Shown here: piece by piece, positions 38,485-55,385 of the stretch | How the letters are laid out: every line of letters starts with the position of its first letter | Position numbering within the stretch: position 1 is the first letter of the stretch | Assembly: GCF_004216565.1 (NCBI RefSeq) | Contig: NZ_SGWV01000008.1 | Coordinates: 248,001-312,000 of the forward strand | Reading direction: 5' to 3' | Length of the DNA stretch: 64,000 nucleotides | DNA from: Sphaerotilus mobilis | GTDB taxonomy: Bacteria > Pseudomonadota > Gammaproteobacteria > Burkholderiales > Burkholderiaceae_C | Program-made: the position numbers and the translations under genes | The notes under the pieces: generated by a model | The model's database searches: none | What the model saw: only the letters and a program-made list of their open reading frames with translations | Told to the model about the DNA's origin: nothing

Positions 38485-38961
38485 TCAGGCCTTCATCGCC
38501 TCGGCACCCACGAACACCGCCTTGACGATGTTCTGGTAGCCGGTGCAGCGGCAGAGGTTGCCTTCCAGGGCTTCACGCACCTGGGCATCGCTCTGGCAAC
38601 CGTGGTGCTGGACCAGGTCGACCGCGCTCATCACCATGCCGGGAGTGCAGAAGCCGCACTGCAGGCCGTGGCACTGGTTGAAAGCGGCCTGCATCGGGTG
38701 CAGCGTGCCATCGGCGGCCGCCAGGCCCTCGATGGTGGTGACCTTCGTGCCGGCGGCTTGCACGGCCAGCATCGCGCAGCTCTTCATCGCACGGCCATCG
38801 ACGTGCACTGTGCACGCACCGCACTGCGAGGTGTCGCAGCCGACGTGCGTGCCGGTCAGCTGCAGCGTCTCGCGGATGAACTGGACCAGCAGGGTCTGCG
38901 GCTCGACGGCGCGCGTGACGTCGCGGCCGTTGACCTGAAGGGTGATCGTCTGTGTCGACAT
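38485..38961 (-). CDS. coxS: CODH-type small [2Fe-2S] subunit
   Basis: A 158-residue subunit with two [2Fe-2S] clusters. The plant-type ferredoxin cysteines are in [16 protein letters not shown], and the second cluster is in CGFCTPGM and [11 protein letters not shown]. It is the first gene of the operon. An upstream palindrome (39089-39106) is shared with the tungsten genes. Confidence 0.95.
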
Positions 38962-39088
38962 GGGGGTCTCCTCGTGGGTCTGATGGTCGTCGGACCCGCT
39001 CGGGTGCGTGGCGTCACCCGCTGCCGGCCGTCAACTCGAGGCGCATCCTATGCAGCACGGCCCGTCGATACTGCCTGTCGCGATTCCC

Positions 39089-39106
39089 TATGAACAACTT
39101 TGCATG
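39089..39106. promoter_or_regulatory. Candidate Mo/W operator, cox-xdhC site (TATG-N10-CATG)
   Basis: TATG, ten bases, then CATG lies between the divergent coxS and xdhC genes. Its centre is about 136 bp before the coxS ATG and 88 bp before the xdhC ATG. The same half-sites and spacing occur before aorA, tupB/moeA and the regulator unit. An overlapping longer inverted repeat (CCCTATGAA 39086-39094, TTCATAGGG 39127-39135) is also present. Confidence 0.55.
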
Positions 39107-39184
39107 AGTCTTGATCGGCAAAAGTCTTCATAGGGGTAGAAGAGGCATCGGCGTCAGGATGTCGCCGCAGTAAGGTTCAACCCC

Positions 39185-40204
39185 ATGGACAACATCGATC
39201 TCCAGATCCTTCGCCAGGTGCAGAACTGGCGAGCGGCCGGCCACCGCGTGGTGCTCGGCACCATCATCCGCACCTGGGGCTCGGCACCCCGGCCGATCGG
39301 CTCGGTGGTCGCCGTGCGCGACGACGGCCAGATCGCCGGCTCGGTCTCCGGCGGCTGCATCGAGGACGACCTGATCGCGCGCGTCCGTGAAGGCGCTTTG
39401 CTGGCCGACACCCCCCGCACCGTGCGCTATGGCGTCTCCGGCGACGAGGCCGCGCGCTTTGGCCTGCCATGCGGCGGCACGATCGAGCTGGTGCTCGAAC
39501 CGGTCTTTCCGCACAGCCAGATCGAGGGACTGCTTGAACGGTTGGCCAGCGGACGCCGGGTGCGCCGCACGCTCGACTTCCTCACCGGCGCCGTCACGCT
39601 GACCGAGGCACAGGCGGGCGACACCCTGAGCTTCGACGGCCAGACGCTTGTCAGCACCCACGGCCCGGGCTGGCGTCTGATCGTCATCGGCGCGGGCCAG
39701 ATGACCCAGTTCCTCGCCGAGATGGGCCGCGCGCTGGACTACCAAGTCTTCATCGTCGACCCGCGCCCCGAATACGCCGACGGCTTCGAGGTGCCCGGCT
39801 GCCAACTCGTGCGCGACATGCCCGACGACGCGCTGGTGGCCCTGTCGCTGGATGCGCACTGCGCCGTCATCGCCCTGACCCACGACCCCAAGCTCGATGA
39901 CCTGGCACTGATGGAAGCGCTGCGTTCGCCCTGTTTCTATGTGGGGGCGATCGGCTCGCGCCTGAACCAGGCCAAGCGCAAGTCGCGGCTGATGGAGCAC
40001 TTCGGCCTGACCGAGGCCGAACTCGCCCGCCTGCACGGCCCAGTCGGCATCAAGAACGGTGCCCGCACACCGCCAGAAATCGCGGTGGCGATCCTGGCCG
40101 AGGTGACCGGCGTGCGTTACGGCTACCGGATCCCGGAGCCGGTGGCGGTCGAAGGTTCGGTCGGTGGCACGGTGAACGGCGCGGAGGCCGGCTGCGTGGT
40201 CTGA
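39185..40204 (+). CDS. XdhC/CoxI-type maturation factor
   Basis: A 339-residue protein of the XdhC/CoxI family, which binds molybdenum cofactor and delivers its sulfurated form to xanthine-oxidase-family enzymes. The N-terminal XdhC/CoxI domain has TWGSAPRPIGSVVAV, SVSGGCIEDDL and the cysteine of GLPCGGTIEL. The C-terminal Rossmann part begins at LIVIGAGQMTQFLAEM. It is divergent from coxS and shares its regulatory region, consistent with maturing the Cox enzyme. Confidence 0.9.
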   Translation: MDNIDLQILRQVQNWRAAGHRVVLGTIIRTWGSAPRPIGSVVAVRDDGQIAGSVSGGCIEDDLIARVREGALLADTPRTVRYGVSGDEAARFGLPCGGTIELVLEPVFPHSQIEGLLERLASGRRVRRTLDFLTGAVTLTEAQAGDTLSFDGQTLVSTHGPGWRLIVIGAGQMTQFLAEMGRALDYQVFIVDPRPEYADGFEVPGCQLVRDMPDDALVALSLDAHCAVIALTHDPKLDDLALMEALRSPCFYVGAIGSRLNQAKRKSRLMEHFGLTEAELARLHGPVGIKNGARTPPEIAVAILAEVTGVRYGYRIPEPVAVEGSVGGTVNGAEAGCVV

Positions 40205-40320
40205 GGCAGCGGGTGGGCAAGTGTCTCGTGCTGGAGCAATCGAGCTGCTCCAACACCCACACCCCCTGCCGCTGAACCCCGTCGGCTTGTCGCATCGGCG
40301 ACCCCCTCCGAGCGGGTTAA

Positions 40321-40369
40321 TGCGAACTGGCATGTCAGCCCCGCGCTGGTGAACATGCCAGGGCTCGCA
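40321..40369 (+). promoter_or_regulatory. Structured leader before the TonB receptor gene
   Basis: A long hairpin can form: outer stem TGCGA/TCGCA (40321-40325 with 40365-40369) and inner perfect 9-bp stem CTGGCATGT/ACATGCCAG (40327-40335 with 40353-40361) around a 17-base loop. It ends 38 bp before the ATG. It may be an RNA regulatory leader or an operator. A second, weaker stem-loop lies upstream at 40232-40252. Confidence 0.5.
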
Positions 40370-40407
40370 AGGGTCCGTGCCACGACCCTCATACACCCAC
40401 GCCCAAG

Positions 40408-42591
40408 ATGTCCGCCCTGCTCGCTTCCTCGTTCGTTCTTCCCACCACCCCTCCCCGTCTCTCCGTGCTGGCCGTGCGCGCCGCGCTGGGCCTGCTGGCC
40501 GCCAGCAACCTCGGCCTTGCCGGGGCTCAGGAGGCCGACCGCCTCGAACCGGTCGTCATCACCGGCTCGACCCGTGAGCAGAAGCTGGTCGACACGCCCT
40601 ACGCGATCAATGCCGTCGGCAGCGAGGCGCTGCGCGCCGCCGGCCCGATGGTCAACCTCTCGGAGGCCCTGCAGTCGGTGCCCGGCCTGGTCGTCGCCAA
40701 CCGCAACAACTACGCCCAGGACCTGCAGATCAGCTCCCGCGGCTTCGGCGCACGCGCCGGCTTCGGCGTGCGTGGCATGCGGCTGTATGCGGACGGCATC
40801 CCCGCCACGATGCCCGACGGGCAAGGTCAGGTCGCCCACTTCGACCTCGCCGGCGCGGATCGGGTGGAGGTGCTGCGTGGGCCGTTCTCATCGATCTATG
40901 GCAGCTCATCGGGCGGTGTGATCGCCGTCTTCAGCAAGCCGGTGCGCGAGCCGAACATGGAAGTCGCCGCCGACGCGGGCAGCGCCGGTCTGCGACAGCT
41001 GCGCGCCAGCGTGGCGACTCCTTTCGGCGACGGTTTCGACCTCTCGGCCAACGTGTCCGATTTCCAGATCGACGGCTTCCGGCCCCAGAGCGATGCCGAT
41101 CGCCAGCTGGCGACCGTGCGACTGGGCTGGAAGAACGCGACCGACAAGGTCGTCGCCACCTTCAGCCACCAGCGCCAGCGGGCCAGCGACCCGCTCGGGC
41201 TCGACGCGGCCCAGTTCAACACCGACCCCGACTCCACCACCGCCAACGCGATCCTCTACAACACGCGCAAGACCATCGAGCAGGACCAGCTCGGCACCAG
41301 CTGGCAACACCGATTCGACGATGCCGGTGCGCTGGCGGGCAGCCAGCTCAGCGCCTATGCGGGACAACGGGCCGTCGTGCAGTTCCTCGCCATCACCCCG
41401 GGCACCCAGGCCAATCCGCGCCACGGTGGCGGCGTGATCGACTTCGATCGCAGCTACAGCGGCATCGACGGCAGGCTCGACTGGCGCTGGGATCAGGTGG
41501 ACCTGATCACCGGCATCAACCTGGAGCAACAGTCCGACGACCGCCGCGGCTTCGAGAACTTCACCGGCACCGCACCCAACCAGGTGGTGGGCGTGTTGAG
41601 CAACCCACGACGCAACGAGGTCAACAAGGCGCAGTCCCGCGAGGCCTATGCGCAGTCCGCCTGGGACCTGTCCAATGACTGGCAGCTCAGCGGCGGCCTG
41701 CGCGGCGGCAAGGTGACGATGAGCGTCGACGACGCCTACCTGAGCAATGGCGACGATTCCGGCGAGCGCAGCTTCAGCTACGTCAACCCGGTCATCGGCC
41801 TGCGCTGGAAGACCAGCGACACCATGACGCTGCACGCCAGCGCCGGTCGTGGCTACGAGACCCCGACCCTGGGCGAGCTGGCCTATCCGCCCAACAACAC
41901 GCTCAATGGCTTCAACACGACGCTGCAGGCGCAAAGCAGCCGCCAGCTGGAGCTGGGTGCCAAATGGCGAGCCGGTCCGCTGGCCCTGGATGCGACCGTG
42001 TTTGCGATCCGCACCGCGAACGAGATCGGCGTGTCGTTCAACCAGGGCGGCAGATCCTCGTTCCAGAACGTCGGCCGGACCGAACGCAGCGGTGCCGAAC
42101 TCTCGGGCGCATGGCGCATCACGCCAGCGCTGCGTTCCATGTTGGCCGTGAGCGTGCTGGACGCCACCTACCTCGACAACTTCGTCACCTGCACCGCCAT
42201 CCCTTGCAACGCCACCACCGGCACCGACGTCGTGCCGGCCGGCAACCGGATCGCGGGCACCCAACAGCAATCGATCTACGCCGAACTGGCCTGGAAGGCG
42301 CCATGGGCCAGCGATGCCGAGACGGCGCTTGAATGGCGCGCAGCGGGCAACACGGCAGCCAATGACCTCAACACGGCCTACGCGGCGGGTTATGGCATCG
42401 CCAACGTGCGCTACCGCCAGCGCTTCGCCCTGGATGCAAACGGGGCGGTCGAACTGCTGGCCCGCGTCGACAACCTGGGTGATCGCCGCTATGCCGGCAG
42501 CGTCATCGTCAACGACCTGAACGGCCGCTACTACGAGCCCGCCCCCGGCCGCAGCGCCCTGGTCTCCCTGCGCTACCAGCGCAAGTTCTGA
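40408..42591 (+). CDS. TonB-dependent outer-membrane receptor
   Basis: A 727-residue receptor with signal peptide (AALGLLAASNLGLAGAQ), a plug domain beginning PVVITGSTREQKLVDTPYAINAV, and a 22-strand-type barrel ending in phenylalanine (LVSLRYQRKF). It would import a scarce chelated compound using TonB energy. The next two genes, 14 bp downstream, are quinoprotein-relay proteins, so PQQ, a lanthanide complex or another cofactor is a plausible cargo. That is inference from context; the ligand cannot be read from the sequence. Confidence 0.9.
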   Translation: MSALLASSFVLPTTPPRLSVLAVRAALGLLAASNLGLAGAQEADRLEPVVITGSTREQKLVDTPYAINAVGSEALRAAGPMVNLSEALQSVPGLVVANRNNYAQDLQISSRGFGARAGFGVRGMRLYADGIPATMPDGQGQVAHFDLAGADRVEVLRGPFSSIYGSSSGGVIAVFSKPVREPNMEVAADAGSAGLRQLRASVATPFGDGFDLSANVSDFQIDGFRPQSDADRQLATVRLGWKNATDKVVATFSHQRQRASDPLGLDAAQFNTDPDSTTANAILYNTRKTIEQDQLGTSWQHRFDDAGALAGSQLSAYAGQRAVVQFLAITPGTQANPRHGGGVIDFDRSYSGIDGRLDWRWDQVDLITGINLEQQSDDRRGFENFTGTAPNQVVGVLSNPRRNEVNKAQSREAYAQSAWDLSNDWQLSGGLRGGKVTMSVDDAYLSNGDDSGERSFSYVNPVIGLRWKTSDTMTLHASAGRGYETPTLGELAYPPNNTLNGFNTTLQAQSSRQLELGAKWRAGPLALDATVFAIRTANEIGVSFNQGGRSSFQNVGRTERSGAELSGAWRITPALRSMLAVSVLDATYLDNFVTCTAIPCNATTGTDVVPAGNRIAGTQQQSIYAELAWKAPWASDAETALEWRAAGNTAANDLNTAYAAGYGIANVRYRQRFALDANGAVELLARVDNLGDRRYAGSVIVNDLNGRYYEPAPGRSALVSLRYQRKF

Positions 42592-42605
42592 TCGCCTGAA
42601 TCCGC

Positions 42606-43436
42606 ATGACCCACCCGCTGCCCCTCGCCCGCCGCCGGTGGCTCGCCGGCGCCCTCTGCCTGTTGGCCACGGCACCGGCCCTCGCGGCCGATGCCTTCGA
42701 GGGCGATCCCTACCAGTCCCACCCCTGGTCCGACATGCGCCGCGAGTTTCTCGGCGCGGGCGAGGTGGTCTGGGACGCGCGGGTGCAGGTCAGCGGACCG
42801 GCGTTTGCCGAGGACCCGATGAACGTGCCGGTGTCGGTCAGCGTCGACGGGCTGACCGGCATCGAGCGCATCGTCATCCTGGTCGACCGCAACCCCATCC
42901 GCAAGGTGCTGGAGTACCAGCCGCTGGCCGCCCTGCCCCGCGTGTCCTTCCGCTTCAAGCTCGAACAGGCCAGCCCCGTGCGGGCAGCGGTGCGCACCGC
43001 CGACGGGCGCTGGCATGTCGGCGGCACCTGGGTCGACTCGTCCGGCGGCGGCTGCACCGTCTCGGGCGCCACCCGCAAGGACGGCAGCTGGTCGCGCACG
43101 CTGGGCACCGTCAGTTCGCGGGTGTTCGAGCGCAGCGAGGCGGCAGGATCGGCCTCCGGTGCGGCGGACACCATCGCGCTGGACGCCGGCTCGCGCATCC
43201 GCGTGCGGGTCATGCACCCGATGGACACCGGCCTGGTGGCCGGCGTGCCGGCCTTCTACCTGAGCAAGCTCACGCTGCGCGACGGCGCTGACCGGGAACT
43301 GCTGCGCCTGCAACCCTTTGAGCCGGTCAGCGAGAACCCCGTCTTCTCCTTCGACTTCCCGGTCCGCCCCGCCGGCCCGCTGCGGCTGGTGGGCGTGGAC
43401 AACAACGGCAACCGCATCGACAGCAGGATCGAATGA
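42606..43436 (+). CDS. Quinoprotein dehydrogenase-associated SoxYZ-like carrier
   Basis: A 276-residue exported protein that fuses SoxY-like and SoxZ-like domains. The SoxY part runs VSVDGLTGIERIVILVDRNPIRKVLEYQP, and the region VDSSGGGCTVSGATRKDG contains the carrier-type cysteine. The SoxZ-like part has MHPMDTGLVAGVPAFYLSKLTL. The combination matches the TIGR04557 family that travels with PQQ dehydrogenases. In these systems the SoxYZ-like protein is thought to act with zinc hydrolases, but its chemistry is unknown. The stop overlaps the next start (ATGA). Confidence 0.88.
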   Translation: MTHPLPLARRRWLAGALCLLATAPALAADAFEGDPYQSHPWSDMRREFLGAGEVVWDARVQVSGPAFAEDPMNVPVSVSVDGLTGIERIVILVDRNPIRKVLEYQPLAALPRVSFRFKLEQASPVRAAVRTADGRWHVGGTWVDSSGGGCTVSGATRKDGSWSRTLGTVSSRVFERSEAAGSASGAADTIALDAGSRIRVRVMHPMDTGLVAGVPAFYLSKLTLRDGADRELLRLQPFEPVSENPVFSFDFPVRPAGPLRLVGVDNNGNRIDSRIE

Positions 43437-44467
43437 GGCCCATCGCCACGCTCCTGTCCGCGGCCGGGCTCGCGGCCGCTCTGGCCGGGCCCGCCGCCAT
43501 CGCGCTCGCCCAGACGCAGATCCCGCAGGCCCTGCAGGCCTCGCAAGTGGACATCTCGCGCCTGGACTACGGCCTGCGGGCCCGCCGGCTGGCCGATGGC
43601 GTTTACGTCATCGAAGGCGCCAACGCCGACTTCAGCCCGGCCAATGGCTGCAACATCATCAACACCGGCTTCATCGAGACCGATGCCGGCGTGGTCGTCG
43701 TCAACACCGGCCCCAGCCGGCTCTATGGCGAGCAGCAGCGGGCCCTGATCGAGCGCACCACCGGCAAGGCGGTCGCCCAGGTCATCCACCTGAACCTGCA
43801 CCCCGACTACTTCCTCGGCAACCAGGCCTACGCGGACGTGCCGCGCCGCGCCACCGAGGCCACCCGCGCCGGCATGGCGCGCGAGGCTGGCGCCTACGAA
43901 ACCAACCTCTACCGCCTCTGCGGCGACTGGATGAAGGCCACGCAGGCCCTGTTGCCGGCCGCCGGCCCGGCCAGCACGCTGGACGCAGCCGCCGATGCCG
44001 GCGTGCTGCGCATCGGTGGGCGCGAGTTGCTGCTGCAGGTGCTGCAGGGCCACACCGATTCCGACCTGGTCCTGATCGACCGCCGCAGCGGCGTCGCCTT
44101 CGTTGGCGGCCTGGCCTTCGCCGAGCGCATCCCGACGACCCCGCACGCCCGCATCGACACCTGGCTGGCCAGCCTCACGACCCTGGCCACGACGCTGAAA
44201 GCCGCCGACGCCCGCGTCATCGTGCCCAGCCACGGCCCTGTGCGCAGCGACACCTTCGCCCTGTTCCAGACCCGCGACTACCTGCGCTGGCTCGACCAGC
44301 GCCTGCGCACCGCCGCTGGCAACGGCCTCGAACTCGCCGAGGTCCTGAAGCTCCCCGTACCCACCCCCTACAAGTCTTGGGCCGCCGTGGAAACCGAGTA
44401 CCTGCGCAACGTGGTGCATCTGTTTCCGAGGGTGGAGGATGCGGTGTTGAGGGGCGAGACTCGGTAG
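43433..44467 (+). CDS. Quinoprotein relay zinc metallohydrolase (MBL fold)
   Basis: A 344-residue exported metallo-beta-lactamase-fold protein matching the quinoprotein relay system metallohydrolase 1 group. The usual HXHXDH is altered to HLNLHPDYFLGNQ. The later metal-binding histidines are in GHTDSDLVLID and PSHGPV. The signal peptide is GLAAALAGPAAIALAQ. It starts inside the SoxYZ-like stop codon, so the two are translated together. A thioester- or persulfide-like intermediate on the carrier has been proposed by analogy, without proof. Confidence 0.85.
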   Translation: MRPIATLLSAAGLAAALAGPAAIALAQTQIPQALQASQVDISRLDYGLRARRLADGVYVIEGANADFSPANGCNIINTGFIETDAGVVVVNTGPSRLYGEQQRALIERTTGKAVAQVIHLNLHPDYFLGNQAYADVPRRATEATRAGMAREAGAYETNLYRLCGDWMKATQALLPAAGPASTLDAAADAGVLRIGGRELLLQVLQGHTDSDLVLIDRRSGVAFVGGLAFAERIPTTPHARIDTWLASLTTLATTLKAADARVIVPSHGPVRSDTFALFQTRDYLRWLDQRLRTAAGNGLELAEVLKLPVPTPYKSWAAVETEYLRNVVHLFPRVEDAVLRGETR

Positions 44468-44648
44468 CTGGTATCCGAGGGTCTTGGACCTGAAGAACAT
44501 CCTGGCCAGAATCACCCAGGTCTTGACCGAAGCCATGCAAGTCGGCCGCCGCAAAGTGCGTGTGCCTGCCGAGTGGTTGGGGCAGCTGTGAAAAGCCTGT
44601 GAGCTTGAACACATGCTGGCGACCTGAGCCCCGCCAGCGAGCGCTGCC
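44468..44648. other. Gap after the MBL gene with a short open frame
   Basis: A 36-codon plus-strand frame (about 44484-44591) beginning at a TTG reads LDLKNILARITQVLTEAMQ and ends QL-stop. It has no clear start site or homologue that I recognise and may be a remnant. Nothing else is evident. Confidence 0.3.
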
Positions 44649-45797
44649 TCATCCCGTCGGCAACAAGCCCAAGGGTGCCACCGACGCCTTCGCCTGCTTG
44701 AAATGCCACCACGGCAGGGCCTTGGTCAGGGACAGCACCTCGCCGGCGGCGCCGATGGCGGGAGGTTCATAGCCGGGGACCGCCGCCAGGGTCTGTTGCC
44801 AATCGGTACTGCCGAGCACGGCGCGCAGCTTGAGGACGGCCGGGTGATCGAGGGCGTCCTTCAGGCCGACGAGGAAGTAGTCCTCGTTCGCCATGGGTAC
44901 GAAGGCCAGCCCGAAGGACTGAGCGGCGGCCTGGATGCCCATGCCGACGTCCCCCAGACCGCTGGCGATGGCGGCGGCGACGGCAATGTGGCTGTCCTCG
45001 GCGGCCAGTTCATGGCGGTTGAGCGCGTCTGCCGGAAGACCGGCGTCCTGCAGCAGGTGGTCGGTCAGCAAGCGGGTGCCAGAGCCGGTCTGGCGCTGGA
45101 CAAAGCGGGCGCCGGTGCGCACAACGTCGGCGAGCGTGCGCAGCGACAGCGGGTTGCCGGGGGCGACCATCAGGCCCTGTGCGCGACGGCTGAAGCCGAT
45201 GAGCTTGTGCTGACCGGGCTTGAGCAGGGGCTTGAGGGCCTGGGCGAACAGCTTGGGCGAATCGGGCAAAGGCGGGACGTGGAAACCGGCGATCCGGCAC
45301 CGCCCTTCAGCCAGCGCACGCAGGGCGTCGACGCTGCCGGCGAAGCGCAGTTCGACGTGCAGACGCTGCTGGCGCGAGGCCAGTTCGCGCAGTGCGGGCA
45401 GGGCCAGGTCGTGGCTGGCGTAGATCGTCAGCACATGCTGATCACCATCGCGGGCTTCGGCCAGGGCGCGTTCGAGCTCGACCCTCAGCGCCTCGATGTG
45501 CGGCGTCAGACGGGTGCGGGCCCGGGTCTCGGCCCACACCAGGCGTTCGGCAAACGGCGTGAGCCGCGCCGGCTGGCCCTGGGACCAGCTGACGAGCGGT
45601 TCGCCGAGCACCTCCTGCCACTGCTTGAGCGAGCCCCAGACGTGGCGGTAGGACAGGCCCAGCGCCTTGGCGGCATGCTGGATCGAGCCGTTCTCGCGCA
45701 CGGCCCAGAGCAGGTCGAACAAGGGGTTGCGGACCTGCGCGCCTTGTTGGGCACTGGGGTCGAAGCTGTACTGAAGGTGGACGCCGAGGCTCTTCAT
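44649..45797 (-). CDS. ModE-like regulator with periplasmic-binding-type sensor domain
   Basis: A 382-residue one-component regulator. The N-terminal 90 residues form a ModE/LysR-like winged helix (LLWAVRENGSIQHAAKALGLSYRHVWGSLKQWQEVLGE). The remainder is a COG1910-type binding domain (HDLALPALRELA, VQRQTGSGTRLLTDHLL, GLGDVGMGIQAAAQSFGLAFVP), as in periplasmic molybdate/tungstate-binding proteins but cytoplasmic here. It is likely to sense molybdate, tungstate or the metal cofactor. It follows the hypothetical gene by 9 bp and is transcribed with it from a promoter carrying the TATG-N10-CATG site. It is the best candidate for the protein that reads the four sites. Confidence 0.85.
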   Translation of the reverse strand: MKSLGVHLQYSFDPSAQQGAQVRNPLFDLLWAVRENGSIQHAAKALGLSYRHVWGSLKQWQEVLGEPLVSWSQGQPARLTPFAERLVWAETRARTRLTPHIEALRVELERALAEARDGDQHVLTIYASHDLALPALRELASRQQRLHVELRFAGSVDALRALAEGRCRIAGFHVPPLPDSPKLFAQALKPLLKPGQHKLIGFSRRAQGLMVAPGNPLSLRTLADVVRTGARFVQRQTGSGTRLLTDHLLQDAGLPADALNRHELAAEDSHIAVAAAIASGLGDVGMGIQAAAQSFGLAFVPMANEDYFLVGLKDALDHPAVLKLRAVLGSTDWQQTLAAVPGYEPPAIGAAGEVLSLTKALPWWHFKQAKASVAPLGLLPTG

Positions 45798-45806
45798 CGT
45801 GGTCGA

Positions 45807-46157
45807 TCAACCGCCGCCGCGGCGGGTGTAGAGGTCGAAGTAGTCCATGAAGCGGGCGCGGTCCTGGGCGTTGCAGGCTTCGAAGGTGAACCGCACCGCC
45901 AAGCGCGGCATGCGCAGCAGCGCGATCTGGCGCGGCGGCAGGGTCTCCCAGTCCAGCAGCAGGCGGGCGCCGGGCTGGCTGGCGTCAAGCTGGACCTCGG
46001 CCCGACCCGGGCCCAGCGATCGCCAAGGGTGCGGGCCGACCGCACCGGGCAACCAGCCCTGCCATTCGGCTTCCGAACAACCCTGCTCACGGCTGAAGGT
46101 GGCGGGCGTCTCGGTGCTTGTCGTGGCGGTGGCAGCCGCCGTGTTGGCATTCGTCAT
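45807..46157 (-). CDS. Hypothetical protein of the tungsten island
   Basis: I do not recognise this 116-residue protein. It has a Thr/Ala-rich N-terminus and then a compact domain (GWLPGAVGPHPWRSLGPGRAEVQLD, LLDWETLPPRQIALLRMPRLAVRFTFE). It has no signal peptide or membrane segment. It is the first gene of the two-gene unit with the ModE-like regulator. The operon context suggests a role in tungsten or aldehyde oxidoreductase function. Confidence 0.6.
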   Translation of the reverse strand: MTNANTAAATATTSTETPATFSREQGCSEAEWQGWLPGAVGPHPWRSLGPGRAEVQLDASQPGARLLLDWETLPPRQIALLRMPRLAVRFTFEACNAQDRARFMDYFDLYTRRGGG

Positions 46158-46220
46158 GGCCTCGATTATTCGTCCTGAGCGATGTTCAAGACTGTCGCCA
46201 GGGCAACGCCAGCCTGCGTC

Positions 46221-46238
46221 TATGCTGCTGGCCCCATG
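46221..46238. promoter_or_regulatory. Candidate Mo/W operator, regulator site (TATG-N10-CATG)
   Basis: TATG at 46221-46224 and CATG at 46235-46238, ten bases apart, centred 72 bp upstream of the hypothetical/regulator unit. It matches the other three sites and suggests autoregulation. It also lies 24 bp before the divergent PLP enzyme gene. Confidence 0.5.
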
Positions 46239-46261
46239 ACGAACGACGCCCGGATGTGCCG

Positions 46262-47596: not shown

Positions 47597-47616
47597 TCGC
47601 GCGGCATCATGACCGG

Positions 47617-48654
47617 ATGAGTTCAACGCCCACCGTCTCGCTGTCCGTCCTGGACCTCGCCCCGATCGCCGAAGGCGAAGGCCCCGCCGATGCCTTGCGC
47701 CACAGCCTCGAACTGGCGCGCCATGCCGAATCGATCGGCTACCGCCGCTACTGGCTGGCCGAGCATCACAACATGGACGGCCTGGCCTGCTCGGCCACCG
47801 CCGTGCTGGTCGGCCACATCGCCGGTGGCACCACGTCGATCCGGGTTGGCTCGGGCGGCGTGATGTTGCCCAACCATGCGCCGCTGGTGATCGCCGAACA
47901 GTTCGGCACGCTGGCCACGCTCTACCCCGGTCGCATCGACCTGGGCCTGGGTCGCGCGCCGGGCACCGACCGCGCCACCGCCCGCGCCCTGCGCCGCACG
48001 CTGCAGGGCGGCGACGAAGAGAGCTTTCCGCAGGACGTGTTGGAGCTGCAGGGCTACCTCGACCGGCCCGACGAAAACCGCCCGCCCGAGGCCGTGCGTG
48101 CCATCCCCGGCATCGGCACGCAGGTGCCGATCTGGTTGCTCGGCTCCAGCCTGTACAGCGCCCAGCTGGCCGCGTATCTGGGCATGCCCTTCGCGTTCGC
48201 CTCGCACTTCGCGCCCGATCAGCTGATGCAGGCCCTGCAGGTCTATCGCAGCACGTATCGACCGAGCGAGGCGCATCCGACCTCGCACGCGATGGTCGCG
48301 GTCAACGTGGTTGCGGCCGACGACGACGCCTCGGCGGCCTTCCAGTTCACATCCATCCAGCAGCGTTTCCTGGGCATGGTGCGCGGCCGGCGCGGGCCCT
48401 TGCCACCGCCGGTCGAGGACATGGACGCACGCTGGAACCCGGCCGAACGCGCCCAAGTCGAGCGCATGCTGGCGGTGTCGGTGGTGGGTGGACCCGACAC
48501 CGTTCGCGCCGGCCTGCAGGCCCTGGCTGACCGCACCGGCGCCGACGAGCTGATCGTCGCTGGTGCGATGCACGACCATGCGGCGCGGCTGCACTCGTAC
48601 ACCCTCGCGGCGGCTTGCGCGCCGCGAGGGTCGAAGACGCCGTGGACGGCCTGA
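47617..48654 (+). CDS. LLM-class flavin-dependent oxidoreductase
   Basis: A 345-residue luciferase-like monooxygenase of the group 1 type. [40 protein letters not shown] and [13 protein letters not shown] are diagnostic. It would use reduced FMN; the substrate is unknown. It is 20 bp behind the PLP enzyme and converges on the MoaD-like gene. Confidence 0.9.
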
Positions 48655-48683
48655 GCGGCGATGACCTGAGGGGAAGTGCGGCC

Positions 48684-48938
48684 TCAGCCGCCCGCCACCG
48701 GCGGCCAGATCGCCAGCACATCGTCGGGCAGCAACACGCGGGTGGCGCGTTCTGCCGGCGGGATGAAGACACCGTTGATCAACACCAGGTGCACCAGCCT
48801 GGGCGGCAGGCGGTGCTGCTCAACCAGGTCGACGACCGTCGTGGTGTCGGGCACGTCCAAGTGGACGACATTGCCGACGCGGCCCTCACTGGGCAGGTAG
48901 TCGCCGAGCGTGGCGTAGAGCTTGAAGGTGATGCGCAT
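48684..48938 (-). CDS. MoaD/ThiS-like sulfur carrier of the AOR cluster
   Basis: An 84-residue ubiquitin-fold protein ending in Gly-Gly (PPVAGG), the site that is thiocarboxylated to donate sulfur to molybdopterin. LINGVFIPPAERATRVLLPDDVLAIWPP is the usual core. The ATG at 48938 gives normal length. It is 28 bp behind aorC on the same strand. A MoaD paralogue in this position is common in tungsten aldehyde oxidoreductase clusters and probably serves the tungsten cofactor. Confidence 0.88.
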   Translation of the reverse strand: MRITFKLYATLGDYLPSEGRVGNVVHLDVPDTTTVVDLVEQHRLPPRLVHLVLINGVFIPPAERATRVLLPDDVLAIWPPVAGG

Positions 48939-48966
48939 GGTGCGATGCTGCCGCACGTCGGCAACG

Positions 48967-50304
48967 TCAGCCACGGACATGGGCACGCGCGGACTGACCC
49001 TGCGCGCAGGCGAGGTAGGCGGCCATCAGCTGCGTCGGGTCATCCATCAGGTGTTGCTTCCATTCGCCCAGCTTGACCTGGCCCTCGACCAGACCACGCA
49101 TCACGCCGACATGCTGGATCCAGCCGATGGCGTTGCAGCCCACCAGCGTGTCACCGCTGAACTGCAAGCTCAGGTGACGGCCGTTGGCCGCATCGGTCAG
49201 CTCGACGTGTTCGCCGCCGGGCACGCCGTCCCATTTGCCGAAGCTCGCCGAGATCATGCCCAGCGTGTCCAGCACGTTGATCTGGGTGACGCCCTTGAGC
49301 TCCGCTGAAGGCTGACCGATGTGGCTGGCCATGTTGAGCGCAGCCACTCGGGCTTGCTCGGCCGCATTGGGTTGGATGGCGCTGACGATGGTCGTGCCGC
49401 TGACCTTGTCGTAGGCCTCAGCGCAGTCGCCCGCCGCGTAGACACCGGGCACATTGGTCTGCATGTGCTCGTCGGTCAGCACACCGACGAGGCAGGTGAT
49501 GCCCGAGTTCTCGAGAAAACCGATGTTGGGCCGCACGCCGGTGGCGCTGATGACCAGGTCGGCGTCGATCTTCTCGCCGGTCGACAGACGCACGCGCATC
49601 GGCGCGGACGGCGATGGAGCGCCCAGGCCGATGGCCTTGGCAACCTTGCCCAGCAGGCCGGGCTCGGTGTCCCGTTCGATGGCTTCGGCACGCGCGCCGG
49701 TGTGGACCTTGACGCCCTTGTCTTGGACCCATTGCTTGATCATCGTGCCGGCGGTCGGCCCCATCATGCGGGGCACCATGCGGTCACCCATCTCGACCAC
49801 CGTCAGCTGCACGCCACGCATGGCCAAGGCTTCCATGATGATGCAGCCGATGAAACCGGCACCGAGTTGCAGAACGCGGGCACCGGGCTGTGCCAGCTTC
49901 ATGATCTCGCGCGCGTTTTCCAGCGTCCAGCACGGGTGCACGCCAGGGCCCTCGATGCCCGGTATCGGCGGTGTCGCGGGCGATGAGCCGGTGGTGATCA
50001 ACAGCCGGTCCCAAGCCACGCTGCTGCCGTCCTGCAACTCGACAGTGCGGGCCTGCACATCGACCTTGACGGCACGGCCACGCTTGAGCGTGATGCCCAG
50101 CTTGGCGTAGTGGTCTGCGCCATGTCGCAGGTGGGTACCGTCTTCGCCGACCTTGCCGATCAGCAGATAGGGAATGGCCATGCGCGAGTACGGCGCTTCC
50201 GGCTCGTCGCCGATGACGACCACCTGGTCGTGCGGCGCATGCTTGCGGAGCGTCTCGGCGGCAATGATGCCGGCCGGTCCGGCACCCAGGATCACGTGGT
50301 TCAT
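48967..50304 (-). CDS. aorC: FAD/NAD(P)-dependent oxidoreductase, AorC-like subunit
   Basis: A 445-residue flavoprotein of the pyridine-nucleotide-disulfide type. The FAD fold starts MNHVILGAGPAGIIAAETL; the NAD-binding motif is QLGAGFIGCIIMEALA, and the second FAD motif is VPGVYAAGDCAEAYDKV. No redox disulfide is seen. In Aromatoleum, AorC binds to AorAB polymers and passes electrons to NAD+; this gene has the same place and size. A strong terminator separates it from aorB (50355-50379), so it may be made in lower amount. Confidence 0.88.
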   Translation of the reverse strand: MNHVILGAGPAGIIAAETLRKHAPHDQVVVIGDEPEAPYSRMAIPYLLIGKVGEDGTHLRHGADHYAKLGITLKRGRAVKVDVQARTVELQDGSSVAWDRLLITTGSSPATPPIPGIEGPGVHPCWTLENAREIMKLAQPGARVLQLGAGFIGCIIMEALAMRGVQLTVVEMGDRMVPRMMGPTAGTMIKQWVQDKGVKVHTGARAEAIERDTEPGLLGKVAKAIGLGAPSPSAPMRVRLSTGEKIDADLVISATGVRPNIGFLENSGITCLVGVLTDEHMQTNVPGVYAAGDCAEAYDKVSGTTIVSAIQPNAAEQARVAALNMASHIGQPSAELKGVTQINVLDTLGMISASFGKWDGVPGGEHVELTDAANGRHLSLQFSGDTLVGCNAIGWIQHVGVMRGLVEGQVKLGEWKQHLMDDPTQLMAAYLACAQGQSARAHVRG

Positions 50305-50354
50305 GGTGGTGGCGATGGTTGGTGGCTCACACGGTGGAGAGCGTGGCGGAACAA

Positions 50355-50379
50355 CAAAAAAGGCGGTCCGAGACCGCCT
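50355..50379 (-). terminator. Intrinsic terminator between aorB and aorC
   Basis: Read on the minus strand, AGGCGGTC-TCG-GACCGCCT is followed by a run of six T. It lies 60 bp after the aorB stop and about 50 bp before aorC. It would end most aorAB transcripts, leaving aorC (and the MoaD-like gene) to read-through. Confidence 0.85.
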
Positions 50380-50439
50380 GGACTTGCACAGGGCCGACGG
50401 GCAGTTCGGGCAAGCCCCGAACCGTCCGCCGTTGCCGGC

Positions 50440-52287
50440 TCAGAGACCCAGACGCGAGCGCGTCTCGGGCTTGAGCTGGCCGTCGTGGTCCCAGCCGCGG
50501 ATCTCGTAGTACTTGGGCAGCATCTCGGGCAGCTTGTTGACCAGTCCCTTGGCCGGGCCCGTCTTGGCCGGCTCGTTGAGCAGACGCGGGGGCAACGTGT
50601 CGTCCTTGCTGGTGAAGCCGGCGCGGTTGTTGAAGTCGCGCTCCATGTTCCAGATGCGTTCGCCGATCTGGTTCAGGTTCTCCAGCGTGAACTCGTCACC
50701 GCAGGCCGCCGCGACCTGCGGCTGCACGTCGGCCAGGGTCCAGGCAAAGCTGGTGAAGATGCAGATGCCGGCAGAGTCGAAGGCGGCGGTGGCGTCCTGG
50801 AAGGCCATCACCAGTTCCGGCTTGCCGTCGGCCGTCAGCGGGTCGGTCTTGACCGGAATGCCCAGCACTTCCGAGGCCACGGTGTAGCTGCGCAGGTGGC
50901 AGGCGCCGCGGTTGGACGTCGCATAGGTCAGGCCCATGCCCTGGATGCCGCGCGAGTCGTAGGCCGGGAATTCCTGGCTCTTGACCGTCATCGACAACTC
51001 GGGATGCCCGTACTTGGCGCACAGGCGCCGTGAGCCCTGGCCGATCTCCTTGCCGAAACCCTCGCCGCGGGCGGTGATGTCGACGAAGTGCGCCAGCGCC
51101 TGGGCCGAACCGAACTTGGCATCGATGCCCAGCTGCTCGGCCGTCAGCACGCCCATCTCATAGAGCTCCATCACCGCGCCGATGGTGGCGCCAAACGAGA
51201 TCGGGTCCATGCCCTGCTCGTTGCAGATCACGTTGGCGTACTGCAGCGCCTCAAGGTCATTGACGCCGTTGGCGGCGCCCAGGGCCCAGGCAGCCTCGTA
51301 CTCCAGACCGCCCGAGGCGCCCCAGTACTGCGGCTTGTTCTCGACCGTGAAGTGACCCTGGTCGATCTTGGAGATCCGGCCGCAGGCGATGGTGCAGCCA
51401 AAACAGGCCTGGTTGGTCACCAGCTGCTTCTTGCCGTCGGTCGCACGGGGCGTGGCCATGGCTTCGGCAGAGATGTCCTTGGCGCCCTCGAACTGGATGT
51501 CCTTGTGGTTGCGTGTGGGCAGCGCACCCATCTCGTTGATCACGTTCATCAGCACCTGCGTCCCGTAGGTCGGCAGGCCCTGGCCGGTGACGGCGTTGTC
51601 GTGAAGGATCTTCTTCTTCTCGAACGTGACGCGCATGAACTCCTTGGGGTTGGCAATGTTGCCCACGCCCTTGGTGCCACGCACGGCCACCGCCTTGAGG
51701 TTCTTGCTGCCCATCACCGCCCCCACACCCGAGCGGCCTGCCGCACGGTGAAGGTCGTTGACGACGGCCGCGAACAGGACCTGGTTCTCGCCCGCCAGGC
51801 CGATGCTGGAGACGCGCAGCAGCGGGTCCTGGTGCTGGGTCTTGAGGGTCTCCTCAGTGACCCAGACGCTCTTGCCCCACAGGCCGGAGGCGTCGCGCAG
51901 TTCGGCCACGTCATCGGCGATGTAGAGATAGACCGGCTTCTCGGAGCGGCCTTCGAAGATGACCATGTCCCAGCCAGCCATCTTCAGCTCGGCGCCCCAA
52001 TAGCCGCCCGAGTTCGAACAGGCGATGGCGCCGGTCAGAGGACCCTTGGTGACGACCGTGTAGCGGCCGCCGGTGGAGGCCATCGTGCCCGTCAACGGTC
52101 CGGTCGACCAGATGATCTTGTTGTCCGCCGACAGCGGATCGACCTTGGGGTCGACTTCCTCGACCAGGTACTTGGATGCCAGTCCGCGCGAACCGAGGTA
52201 CTGCTTGGCCCAGTCCATCTTCAGCGGCTCGGAGGCCACCGTGCCGGTGCTCAGGTTGACGCGAAGGATTTTTCCTGCCCATGCCAT
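50440..52287 (-). CDS. aorB: Tungsten-containing aldehyde:ferredoxin oxidoreductase, catalytic subunit
   Basis: A 615-residue AOR-family enzyme that oxidises aldehydes to acids at a tungsten bis-pterin centre. The N-terminus MAWAGKILRVNLSTG and the cofactor-binding GPLTGAIACSNSGGYWG are typical. The [4Fe-4S] cysteines are in ACFGCTIAC, and the later one is in FDSAGIC. RGIQGMGLTYATSNRGACH is the pterin-binding segment. The start at 52287 has a strong AAGGAG site; the frame continuing to 52740 overlaps aorA. It is 11 bp behind aorA. The likely physiological substrates include aldehydes from alcohol oxidation. Confidence 0.95.
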   Translation of the reverse strand: MAWAGKILRVNLSTGTVASEPLKMDWAKQYLGSRGLASKYLVEEVDPKVDPLSADNKIIWSTGPLTGTMASTGGRYTVVTKGPLTGAIACSNSGGYWGAELKMAGWDMVIFEGRSEKPVYLYIADDVAELRDASGLWGKSVWVTEETLKTQHQDPLLRVSSIGLAGENQVLFAAVVNDLHRAAGRSGVGAVMGSKNLKAVAVRGTKGVGNIANPKEFMRVTFEKKKILHDNAVTGQGLPTYGTQVLMNVINEMGALPTRNHKDIQFEGAKDISAEAMATPRATDGKKQLVTNQACFGCTIACGRISKIDQGHFTVENKPQYWGASGGLEYEAAWALGAANGVNDLEALQYANVICNEQGMDPISFGATIGAVMELYEMGVLTAEQLGIDAKFGSAQALAHFVDITARGEGFGKEIGQGSRRLCAKYGHPELSMTVKSQEFPAYDSRGIQGMGLTYATSNRGACHLRSYTVASEVLGIPVKTDPLTADGKPELVMAFQDATAAFDSAGICIFTSFAWTLADVQPQVAAACGDEFTLENLNQIGERIWNMERDFNNRAGFTSKDDTLPPRLLNEPAKTGPAKGLVNKLPEMLPKYYEIRGWDHDGQLKPETRSRLGL

Positions 52288-52298
52288 GTGTGTGCTCC

Positions 52299-52772
52299 TT
52301 ACGCGGCGGTTTGGTTGCCGAGCTTGTCCGCCCAGGCCTGCATCTTGTTCAGACCGGTCCAGTTGGCATCGATGAAGGTGATCGCGCCAGTGGGGCAGGC
52401 TTCGGCACAGGCCGGTTCGCCGCCGCACAGGTCGCACTTTTGGACCTTGCCGGTTTCCTGCACGTAGTTGATCGTGCCGAAGGGGCAGGAGATCGTGCAG
52501 ACCTTGCAGCCCACACAGGTGCTGTCGTTGACGACCTTGGCGCCAGTGGACTTGTCGACCGTGATGGCCTCGACCGGGCATGCGTGCAGGCACCAGGCCT
52601 CGTCGCACTGGGTGCAGGTGTAGGGCACCTTGCGGCCGGTCTCGTGGAAGTCGAACACCTTGATGCGCGACTTCGCGGTGGCAAATACACCGTAGTTCTC
52701 GTAAGAACAGGCCATCTCGCACTGGAGACAACCCGTGCACTTGTCCGGGTTGATGTGGAGGCTCTTCTGCAT
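52299..52772 (-). CDS. aorA: Polyferredoxin subunit of aldehyde oxidoreductase
   Basis: A 157-residue electron-transfer subunit with four [4Fe-4S] motifs: CTGCLQCEMAC, CTQCDEAWCLHAC, CVGCKVCTISC and CDLCGGEPACAEAC. It matches the HycB/AorA-type ferredoxin that polymerises with AorB in Aromatoleum-type enzymes. It is the first gene of the aor operon, 71 bp downstream of the palindromic site at 52844-52861. Confidence 0.93.
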   Translation of the reverse strand: MQKSLHINPDKCTGCLQCEMACSYENYGVFATAKSRIKVFDFHETGRKVPYTCTQCDEAWCLHACPVEAITVDKSTGAKVVNDSTCVGCKVCTISCPFGTINYVQETGKVQKCDLCGGEPACAEACPTGAITFIDANWTGLNKMQAWADKLGNQTAA

Positions 52773-52843
52773 GACGGGGTTCTCCGCAGTCGTTCCGTGG
52801 GTAGGAGTGAACGCTTCCCGCAGGCCATGCCTTCGAGCAGCTC

Positions 52844-52861
52844 TATGCAATCATCTGCATA
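52844..52861. promoter_or_regulatory. Candidate Mo/W operator, aor site (TATG-N10-CATA)
   Basis: A perfect 7-bp inverted repeat (CTATGCA-ATCATC-TGCATAG, 52843-52862) centred 80 bp upstream of aorA. It is the most symmetrical of the four shared sites. A second inverted repeat (ACCCG-N11-CGGGT, 52889-52909) lies further upstream. Confidence 0.65.
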
Positions 52862-52985
52862 GCGATAGCCGATGCCTACCTAGGCCTAACCCGTAGAACT
52901 CATGCGGGTATGGGGGACGACCTGAAAGTCTGTCCCAGCCTGGTACGTCGATTCGTCCGACGCCGGCCGCGAACGGCCCGGCGGC

Positions 52986-53864
52986 TCAGCGCGGCGCGTT
53001 CGGGAAGAACAACTGCTCGCCGCCGATCTTGTAGGCCGCGATGGCCGATTGGCCGGCCGGCGACACCACCCAGTCGACGAACTGCTGACCGGCCGCTTGC
53101 TTGACATGCGGGTGCTTGGCCGGATTGACCAGCATCACGCCGTACTGGTTGAACAGTTTCATGTCACCTTCGACCAGCACGGCCAGATCGGCGCGGTTCT
53201 TGAATGACAGCCACGTGCCGCGGTCGGCCAGCACATAGGCGCCGGTGCTGGCGGCCATGTTGAGCGCCGGGCCCATGCCACAACCGCATTCGCGGTAGCC
53301 CGTCGGCTTGGCGGCGCCGCTGGCGATGTCGGTGCCGGCCTGCTTCCAGTAGCGCAGCTCGGCAGCGTGGGTACCACTCTTGTCGCCGCGCGAGATGAAG
53401 GTCGCGCCGCTGGCGGCCGTCGCGCCAGCCAGCTTTTGCAGTGCGGCCACGATGTCGCGGCCCTTGACCTTGGCCGGATCGGCGGCAGGGCCAATCAGCA
53501 CGAAGTCGTTGTACATGACCGGTAGGCGCTTGACGCCGAACCCGTCGGCGACGAACTTCTCTTCGGCCACCTGGTCATGCACAAAGACCACGTCGGCATC
53601 GCCGCGGCGGCCCATGTCCAGCGCCTGGCCGGTGCCCAGCGCGACCACCCGGACTTCCGTGCCGGTGGCGGTCTTGTAAATCGGCAGCAGGTGGCCAAAC
53701 AGGCCGGACTGCTCGGTCGACGTGGTGGACGCCACGACGATGAACTTCTCCTGCGCAGCGGCTGGCAGCGCACCAGCCAGCAGGCCCGCCAGGCACAAGG
53801 CCGCTGCGAGCAGGTGACGGCGGGCGGGCGTGGCCGGGCAGCCGGACAGGTTCAGGTGGTCCAT
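52986..53864 (-). CDS. tupA: Tungstate ABC transporter substrate-binding protein
   Basis: A 292-residue periplasmic binding protein with signal peptide (LCLAGLLAGALPAAAQ). The tungstate-binding STTSTEQSGL motif (residues 46-55), GTGQALDMGRRGDADVVFVHD and VMYNDFVLIGPAADPAKVKG are characteristic of TupA rather than ModA. The C-terminal part contains SRGDKSGTH. The start overlaps the end of tupC by 13 bp. Together with tupB and tupC it imports tungstate for AOR. Confidence 0.95.
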   Translation of the reverse strand: MDHLNLSGCPATPARRHLLAAALCLAGLLAGALPAAAQEKFIVVASTTSTEQSGLFGHLLPIYKTATGTEVRVVALGTGQALDMGRRGDADVVFVHDQVAEEKFVADGFGVKRLPVMYNDFVLIGPAADPAKVKGRDIVAALQKLAGATAASGATFISRGDKSGTHAAELRYWKQAGTDIASGAAKPTGYRECGCGMGPALNMAASTGAYVLADRGTWLSFKNRADLAVLVEGDMKLFNQYGVMLVNPAKHPHVKQAAGQQFVDWVVSPAGQSAIAAYKIGGEQLFFPNAPR

Positions 53865-54565
53865 GGAAGTTCGCCTTTCAGGAATTGCGCCGCTGCGGGC
53901 GGCAGGGTGTCACGGAAGAATCGGTCCACAGGCAAGTCGACCACCAGCCGGCCAGCCTCGAGGTGGACCACCCGGCTGGCCAGGCGCTTGGCCTGGCCGA
54001 GGTTGTGCGTGCTCATGACGAGGGTGACGCCATCGCGCGCGAACTCGTCGATCAGCGTCTCGACTTCGCGCTTGGCGCTCGGGTCCAAGCTGGCGGTCGG
54101 CTCATCCAGGAACAGGACGTCGGGCCGCAATGCCCAGGCCCGCGCCAGGGCCAGACGCTGCTGCTGCCCTCCGGACAAGGCACGGGCCGAACGCTGGGCA
54201 AGCGTCTGCAGGCCGACCCGCTCCAGCGCCGCATCGGCGCGCGCACGGCGTTCGTCACGCGGGACGCCGGCCAGCCACAGGGCCAGCGTCAGGTTGCGGC
54301 GCGCGCTCAGGTGCAGCAGGAAAGGTCGCTGGAACAGCATCGCCATGACCGGCGGCCGGCCCCGCTCGCACAGGTGCAGCGTGCGCTCGCCAGGCCCGTC
54401 GATCAGGCCATGCAGGCGGCGCAGCAGCGTGGTCTTGCCCGAGCCGTTGGCGCCGACCAGCGCCAGCCGGTCGCCACGTCGCAACGTCAGGTCGATTTCG
54501 ACCAGTGCCGGCACCGCGCCGAAGACAACGCCTGCTCGACGCAGCGTGATCAGGTCAGCGTTCAT
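53852..54565 (-). CDS. tupC: Tungstate ABC transporter ATPase
   Basis: A 237-residue ABC ATPase. Walker A is GANGSGKTTLL, the signature is ALSGGQQQRLALARAW, and Walker B is DVLFLDEPTASLD. It overlaps tupB by 4 bp and tupA by 13 bp. It energises the TupB permease. Confidence 0.93.
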   Translation of the reverse strand: MNADLITLRRAGVVFGAVPALVEIDLTLRRGDRLALVGANGSGKTTLLRRLHGLIDGPGERTLHLCERGRPPVMAMLFQRPFLLHLSARRNLTLALWLAGVPRDERRARADAALERVGLQTLAQRSARALSGGQQQRLALARAWALRPDVLFLDEPTASLDPSAKREVETLIDEFARDGVTLVMSTHNLGQAKRLASRVVHLEAGRLVVDLPVDRFFRDTLPPAAAQFLKGELPWTT

Positions 54566-55281
54566 CCGACGGCACCCTCGCCAGCCGCCCGCAGTCCTTG
54601 GGGCTGCAGCCAGCCGACCACCCCATTGATGACGCCGACGACACCCAGCAACAGCAGGCCAAGCGCCAACGCCAGCGGCAGGTCGCCCTTGCTGGTCTCC
54701 AGCGCGATGGCGGTGGTCATCACGCGGGTCACACCGTCGATGTTGCCGCCGACGATCATCACCGCGCCGACTTCGGCCACCGCTCGACCGAAGGCCGTCA
54801 GCAGCACGGTCAGCACCGACAGGCGCTCGTGCAGCAGCACCAGCAGCGCACCCATCAAGGGCCCGGCACCCATCGAGCGCAACTGGTCGCCGCCTTCGGC
54901 CATGCCGTCGATGACCAGGCGACGCGTGAGCGCAGCGATCAGGGGCACGACCAGGATGCTCTGCGCCACCACCATGGCCGAGGGCGTGAACAGGATGCCC
55001 AGCGAACCGAGCGGTCCGCTGCGCGACAGCAGCAGGTAGACCAGCAGGCCGACCACGACCGAAGGCAGGGCCAGCAAGGTGTTGAGCAGCCAGACCGCCA
55101 GCGCGTGGCCCGGAAATCGCGCCACCGCCATCCAGGCCCCCAGCAGCAGGCCGAAGGCCGCTCCGATGGCGCAGGCCGCACCGCTGACCTGCAAGGACAA
55201 CACCACGATCTGTCGCACGGCAGGGTCGCCGCGAACGATCAGATCAACGGCCGTGGACAGGCTCAAAGCCAGCGTCGTCAT
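54562..55281 (-). CDS. tupB: Tungstate ABC transporter permease
   Basis: A 239-residue permease with about five to six membrane segments. The coupling-helix region AFGRAVAEVGAVMIVGGNIDG is characteristic of the TupB/ModB group. The ATG at 55281 gives normal length. It is first in tupBCA, divergent from moeA; both share the site at 55368-55385. Confidence 0.93.
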   Translation of the reverse strand: MTTLALSLSTAVDLIVRGDPAVRQIVVLSLQVSGAACAIGAAFGLLLGAWMAVARFPGHALAVWLLNTLLALPSVVVGLLVYLLLSRSGPLGSLGILFTPSAMVVAQSILVVPLIAALTRRLVIDGMAEGGDQLRSMGAGPLMGALLVLLHERLSVLTVLLTAFGRAVAEVGAVMIVGGNIDGVTRVMTTAIALETSKGDLPLALALGLLLLGVVGVINGVVGWLQPQGLRAAGEGAVG

Positions 55282-55367
55282 CGCGCAGAGACGGCCGGAT
55301 GGCCCGCAAGATAGGAAAGACCGTTCATGTAGGATGGGATTCTGCGGATCTTGCAGGAGGCTGGCGA

Positions 55368-55385
55368 TATGTGTCTCCGTGCATA
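55368..55385. promoter_or_regulatory. Candidate Mo/W operator, tup-moeA site (TATG-N10-CATA)
   Basis: TATG and CATA half-sites ten bases apart, mid-way between the divergent tupB and moeA genes (centres about 95 and 92 bp from the two ATGs). It has the same half-sites and spacing as the aor site, so one regulator could control import and cofactor assembly. Confidence 0.6.

Follow-up and report, generated by a model that had tools for sequence, protein, structure and literature searches.

A palindromic operator at tungsten and molybdenum gene promoters and a candidate regulator with a ModE-like DNA-binding domain in Sphaerotilus mobilis and its relatives

Gene content of the locus

We analysed a 64,000-nucleotide stretch of the Sphaerotilus mobilis genome (hereafter the window; G000:C2:248001-312000, from a genome of 4,648,224 bp in 15 contigs), in which promoters of molybdenum (Mo) and tungsten (W) genes share a palindromic element that follows, across related genomes, a regulator encoded in the same region and here named RegT (44649..45797, minus strand). 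To our knowledge, the sensing of tungsten as distinct from molybdenum in aerobic and facultative bacteria is poorly known. The nearest named relative found was Leptothrix discophora (L059), whose RegT is 92% identical and whose gene order is much alike.

The region encodes a Mo-hydroxylase, coxS-coxL-coxM, consisting of a coxS-like 2Fe-2S subunit (38485..38961), a coxL-like large subunit (36072..38429) and a coxM-like FAD subunit (35256..36044), all on the minus strand, with the gene of the maturation factor XdhC (39185..40204, plus strand) divergent from coxS. The coxL-like protein carries an AYRGAGR loop and is presumably not a form-I CO dehydrogenase. Around the regulator lie genes for a TonB receptor, a SoxYZ fusion, a beta-lactamase-fold protein, RegT itself, a D-serine-dehydratase-like protein and a luciferase-like protein. 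Further along come aorCBA, tupACB, moeA, a pyrroloquinoline quinone (PQQ) dehydrogenase gene and a histidine kinase gene. Of these, aorA (52299..52772, minus strand) encodes an Fe-S subunit with Pfam Fer4 domains, aorB (50440..52287, minus strand) the aldehyde oxidoreductase (AOR) large subunit (AFOR_C 454 bits and AFOR_N 269 bits, both over the cut-off), and aorC (48967..50304, minus strand) an FAD/NAD subunit assigned from gene order and matches below cut-off; together these three genes make up the set of an AorABC-type enzyme with a predicted tungsten content. The aor operon described in an excerpt of a published study (PMC6365974) holds aorDE besides aorABC. The tungstate-binding protein TupA (52986..53864, minus strand) matched NF041772 at 220.6 bits, below the cut-off of 400, and PDB entry 3lr1 at E 8.7e-68. 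The ABC ATPase gene tupC (53852..54565, minus strand) was assigned by context, the permease gene tupB (54562..55281, minus strand) by NF038017 over its cut-off, with NF041773 at 136.6 bits below its own, and moeA (55469..56761, plus strand) by PRK10680 (533.4 bits, exceeding the cut-off of 440). No Rfam family reached its gathering score between window positions 35000 and 61000, where a riboswitch was looked for.

Operator sites in the window

The original prediction, made from the window alone, held that a palindrome of the form TATG-N10-CATA/G marks the promoters of four Mo/W transcription units. All four sequences are present, starting at 39089, 46221, 52844 and 55368, and their claimed rarity of fewer than one per 64 kb was borne out: TATGN10CATR occurs at these four places only (six matches when both strands are counted), where 0.40 would be expected, and none of 100 shuffles gave six matches or indeed more than two. 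In the whole genome, TATGN10CATA was found at exactly two places, 52844 and 55368 (reversed control: one). The relaxed TATGN10CATR was found at 31 places with 33 matches (reversed control: 8), so that the asymmetric sites 39089 and 46221 are not special by themselves and needed independent evidence.

To obtain such evidence we used a matrix trained on 32 distinct sites from relatives, with S. mobilis and its sister species L. discophora left out; the 46 available sites were reduced to this number by dropping those of L. discophora, L033 and L056 (no known neighbour), L090 (a site with an N) and duplicates. Across the 64 kb, 39089 (22.6) ranked first, followed by 52844 (21.6) and 55368 (17.5). 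The maximum in 80 simulated 64-kb sequences was 17.46, meaning that the score of 55368 was about equalled once and those of 39089 and 52844 never. The 31 relaxed places favour chance matching of an AT-rich pattern as the explanation of the sites, which holds for 46221; the spacing, conservation and placement controls given below refute it for 39089 and 52844, and conservation refutes it for 55368, leaving chance as an extremely improbable account of the set.

Three of the predicted sites thus stand as operators. That of aorABC (52844..52861, minus strand; TATGCAGATGATTGCATA read in the aor direction) and that of tupBCA, common to the divergent moeA (55368..55385, minus strand), are perfect palindromes, and both are kept in a genome of the same genus, G058 (L130:11038 and L130:13501), the latter also in G076 (L133:5267). 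In L. discophora the operator of coxS-coxL-coxM (39089..39106, minus strand) has a counterpart in the same position (L059:18000) that is a perfect palindrome. The original prediction had reported no further copies, which is correct for the TATGN10CATR pattern but misses a second, weaker operator for xdhC (39115..39132, plus strand; TCGGCAAAAGTCTTCATA) that scores 11.4 in the window and 12.9 in L. discophora. Operators lie 78 nt from the start codon of xdhC, 71 nt from that of aorA, 86 nt from that of tupB and 83 nt from that of moeA (the last measured from its open reading frame).

The site at 46221..46238 (plus strand), by contrast, scores -5.5 and is not kept in L. discophora, which has CATC there (aligned by eye). 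Nor does it lie in the promoter of the regulator: it is 23 nt before the opposite-strand D-serine-dehydratase-like gene, whereas RegT starts about 420 nt away. Because this rejected site is nevertheless the best-scoring position between regT and its neighbour, the predicted autoregulation is unsupported in S. mobilis itself.

With the strict pattern TATGMAN6TKCATA and up to one mismatch, the genome holds four places, 52844, 39089, C2:580444 and C4:313892, and with up to two mismatches 40 places against 14 in the control. Neither of the additional one-mismatch places was retained as a target, C2:580444 sitting between convergent racemase-like and Lon-like open reading frames (named by eye) and C4:313892 being internal to an open reading frame.

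Conservation of the operator across relatives

Conservation in related promoters was examined in 70 loci fetched by their RegT (L030-L058, n=29; L059-L099, n=41; 787,726 bases, some from near kin). TATG-N10-CATA occurred 46 times in 42 of these loci, and any other spacing from 0 to 24 at most twice. When the 64 half-sites containing one G/C were compared, TATG came first, the mean of the other 63 being 4.0; TGAT-N10-ATCA was also over-represented, with 33 matches in 26 loci. Forty-four of the 46 sites lay at most 158 nt from, or overlapped, the estimated start of tupB, tupA, regT, aorA or xdhC, the exceptions being in L033 and L056.

Among distinct upstream regions, a matrix site scoring at least 13 was present in 36/36 for tupB and 17/19 for aorA (seven of the tupB and most of the aorA regions having been fetched via the motif itself), in 5/6 for xdhC, and in 24/74 for regT, a count that omits operators overlapping the regT start. 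Five of the seven aorA regions reached via RegT had a site, and the regT regions with a site were mostly those with a divergent tup. In L057 and similar loci, where tup is divergent, operator and estimated regT start overlap (distance -12), a position that would be compatible with autorepression. In seven Variovorax loci with a RegT orthologue (L071, L087, L092, L093, L094, L096 and L098), neither tup or aor genes nor a matrix match of at least 13 was found within the 21-kb locus.

Several further observations were made in the relatives. Pfam annotation of 20 proteins near other motif places showed mostly no evident Mo/W link. Matrix matches were seen near formate-dehydrogenase-type genes in two relatives (L145:10225 and L138:15347), which we regard as a lead only. 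At least seven genomes, some with and some lacking RegT, contain a perfect 18-nt palindrome, TATGCAACTGGTTGCATA (for example L106:1501, L107:1501, L111:1501 and L115:1501), which precedes old-yellow-enzyme-like genes in both cases examined. The PQQ alcohol-dehydrogenase-like gene (window 57040-58779) remains close to tup/moeA or to the regulator gene in L130, L133, L139 and L140, which suggests an alcohol-to-aldehyde-to-acid pathway.

Co-occurrence of the motif with RegT

We sampled 200 genomes of the family and found a RegT orthologue in 82; at most nine candidates per genome were scored, so that absences may be misses, and some lie on broken contigs. Orthologue genomes were compared with 16 that encode only a paralogue, using a split at about 300 bits chosen after viewing the list. 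TATGN10CATA exceeded its reversed control in the 82 orthologue genomes (507 vs 359; Wilcoxon 8e-6, a P value that, like the others here, overstates independence among related genomes and loci), with 52 vs 46 in the paralogue-only genomes and 507 vs 525 in the 102 genomes without either. The strict form gave 113 matches vs 5 in the control (orthologue), 6 vs 2 (paralogue only) and 26 vs 11 (none), and was present in 63/82, 4/16 and 21/102 of the respective genomes; TATGCAACTGGTTGCATA slightly inflates these strict counts in genomes with and without RegT alike. Among TupA-positive genomes, the strict form was found in 61/78 with RegT and 10/37 without, where, as in the ModE split below, all 118 other genomes were counted as lacking RegT.

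A canonical ModE (helix-turn-helix, HTH, plus TOBE) is encoded elsewhere in the S. mobilis genome, at C2:412256, and the operator has the same layout as the E. coli ModE box, ATCGNTATATA-N6-TATATANCGAT, given in an excerpt of PMC545781; it could accordingly be this ModE that binds the sites, with RegT simply accompanying these genes. When the genomes were divided by ModE as well (1e-20), the strict form was found in 34/46 with both proteins, 29/36 with RegT only, 14/80 with ModE only and 11/38 with neither. G058, which has no ModE match at 1e-20, keeps both the aor and tup sites, and the 15-kb modA-modE stretch of S. mobilis is without a matrix match of at least 8 or a TATAN10TATA with up to one mismatch. 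The motif follows RegT, not canonical ModE, across the family genomes; this split led us to reject ModE as the main binder, a role that we now consider very unlikely for it. The broader proposal that a single regulator is tied to the W-enzyme, tungstate import and the Mo-hydroxylase is well supported by these data, in that sites recur at tup, aor and xdhC/cox promoters and follow regT across genomes.

Domain architecture of RegT

RegT combines a ModE-like HTH with a PBP_like sensor, PF12727 matching at 176.8 bits (cut-off 27), and its AlphaFold2 model has a mean confidence (pLDDT) of 88.5. The original prediction of a ModE-like regulator with a molybdate/tungstate-type sensor may be apt for the DNA-binding part: ModE chains (2ijl, 1b9m) were the best PDB sequence matches of RegT, through the HTH, and TIGR00637, the ModE-type N-terminal HTH model, matched at 41.5 bits, below its cut-off of 98.5. 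It does not extend to the sensor, since Pfam shows PBP_like and no Mop/TOBE domain in RegT, whereas the ModE of the same genome does show TOBE. Judged by its domains, RegT is not a member of the ModE family. The LysR-type HTH_1 model also matched (39.7 bits, cut-off 26.6), with the LysR substrate domain PF03466 at 21.0 bits, under its cut-off of 28, and neither of the TunR-type domains (phage-integrase-like, Mop) was listed for RegT at E 0.001.

The sensor region matched PRK14498 over that model's C-terminal portion (147.5 bits, short of the cut-off of 534), and the modelled fold together with an Arg/Thr pair hints at a possible tungstate pocket. Phosphate-binding proteins head the structural comparison, and the formate-responsive FdsR system (PMC7057948, seen in excerpt) is a possible relative; with the matches near formate-dehydrogenase-type genes, these points are compatible with RegT sensing a different oxyanion or a metabolite (phosphate, molybdate, formate or an acid derived from an aldehyde) and being linked to tungsten only indirectly. 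Against this, TupA is present in 78 of the 82 RegT genomes, and the PBP domain of the MoeA-PBP fusion, whose model the RegT sensor matches, is found together with TupA in 86% of cases according to an excerpt of PMC11733289. We therefore hold a different ligand to be unlikely and favour tungstate.

Promoter geometry and proposed mechanism

Operator placement was surveyed in promoters with a site only, scoring hexamers by generic -10 base frequencies. Of 36 distinct tupB promoters, 18 have their best -10-like hexamer starting 23 nt after the operator, nine at 38 nt, three at 37 nt and six elsewhere, and the averaged +23 peak was reached in 0/1000 permutations (30 dereplicated promoters). The predicted -10 of tupB in the window (CAGAAT, 55339..55344, minus strand) is at this peak offset, 23 nt past the operator. 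A further weak matrix match (9.8) at 55312-55329, between this -10 and the start codon, may be chance. The cox/xdhC promoters of the window, L. discophora, L064 and L136 each have two operators, and in 8/10 promoters one operator per direction is exactly 38 nt from its best hexamer, a count that offers two operators to pick from per direction, draws on near kin in the window and L. discophora, and includes the 39115 operator, which a length filter kept outside the permutation statistic. L134 fails in both directions, and L136 toward xdhC has a better hexamer at +28 of the other operator. In the window, the predicted -10 elements of coxS (TAGGAT, 39045..39050, minus strand) and xdhC (TAAGGT, 39171..39176, plus strand) are each 38 nt past their operators. 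No good -35 was seen by eye at tup, cox or xdhC promoters. At tup, cox and xdhC the operator's fixed position ahead of the -10 suggests an activator-like geometry. The divergent moeA shares the tup operator and may also be served by it.

When aorA promoters are averaged, the peak falls on a hexamer that ends 3 nt short of the operator (0/1000 permutations, n=15), one seen by eye in 11/17; the promoters of the window, L130, L064 and L132 have an operator centre NATNAT instead, and L135 and L141 have neither. In most aor promoters examined, the operator thus covers the -10/start region, which suggests repression. Two points weigh against this reading: the window's own aor promoter, where it is least sure, is without the hexamer on which repression mainly rests, and aor promoters are ambiguous when taken singly. 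Many relatives (L113, L114, L145, L144, L068 and others) share another conserved element, AGGGTTNNCCTAGG-like, beginning about 45 nt upstream of their aor operator, and the window has a counterpart at about 52879-52892, some 31 nt upstream; the element is perhaps the site of another, aor-specific regulator.

From these computed patterns we infer that RegT is the binder, tungstate the ligand, and the outcome activation at tup and cox/xdhC and repression at aor. In the model that we consider probable, the RegT operator is TATG(A/C)A-N6-T(G/T)CATA, the regulon comprises tupBCA (with moeA divergent), aorABC and cox/xdhC, and ligand-free (apo) RegT activates tup and cox/xdhC and represses aor. RegT would bind at 55368, 52844, 39089 and, more weakly, 39115, its sensor would take tungstate, and it would activate tup and cox/xdhC from the fixed upstream position and repress aor by covering the -10/start region. 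For one protein to do both with physiological sense, the tungstate-free form must act on DNA: without tungstate, apo-RegT on DNA would keep uptake and the Mo-enzyme on and the W-enzyme off, and tungstate would reverse this state. 

ModE acts on DNA in its ligand-bound form. RegT might do likewise and simply repress every promoter in a metal-dependent way, as would fit the operators that overlap or adjoin the regT start in some of the relatives where tup and regT diverge. Two points argue otherwise: at tup, cox and xdhC the operator sits a set distance ahead of the -10, with no good -35 evident by eye, and tungstate repressing a W-enzyme would be perverse. We judge this an improbable alternative to the action of apo-RegT. 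More tentatively, apo-RegT could be a two-way switch between W- and Mo-dependent isozymes set by tungsten supply, with a sign opposite to that of ModE. The analysis offers a specific candidate regulator, operator and target set across one bacterial family, with testable predictions for each promoter, and no earlier description of this operator or of a RegT-tup link was found among the mostly open-access matches listed by the literature searches (at most 25 of up to 2,844).

Comparison with known systems

RegT resembles E. coli ModE in its HTH sequence and in the N10 half-site spacing, the ModE consensus being TATA-N10-TATA in the excerpt of PMC545781. It differs from the TATATA-N6-TATATA operator in the fourth base of both half-sites, which is G/C in its sites and was preset by the TATG/CATA choice of training sites. 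Its sensor is of the PBP type instead of Mop/TOBE and its regulon is centred on tungsten, and the sign and apo-form action proposed for it would be opposite to ModE logic.

The Desulfovibrio integrase-Mop regulator, which we take to be TunR, is like RegT in being a predicted regulator with ties to Mo/W transport genes, but its architecture is unrelated. According to the same excerpt (PMC545781), an integrase-Mop gene lies within a modABC cluster, and the mod motif is CGGTCACG-N14-CGTGACCG. TupA of D. alaskensis and G. sulfurreducens is a periplasmic transport protein, known for a TTTS motif and Asp170, whereas RegT is a predicted cytoplasmic regulator. The MoeA-PBP fusion (archaeal MoeA1 and bacterial relatives) has a sensor domain like that of RegT, as the PRK14498 match indicates, but joined to an enzyme, whereas in RegT it is joined to a DNA-binding domain; RegT would thereby couple a ModE-like DNA reader to a different type of oxyanion sensor.

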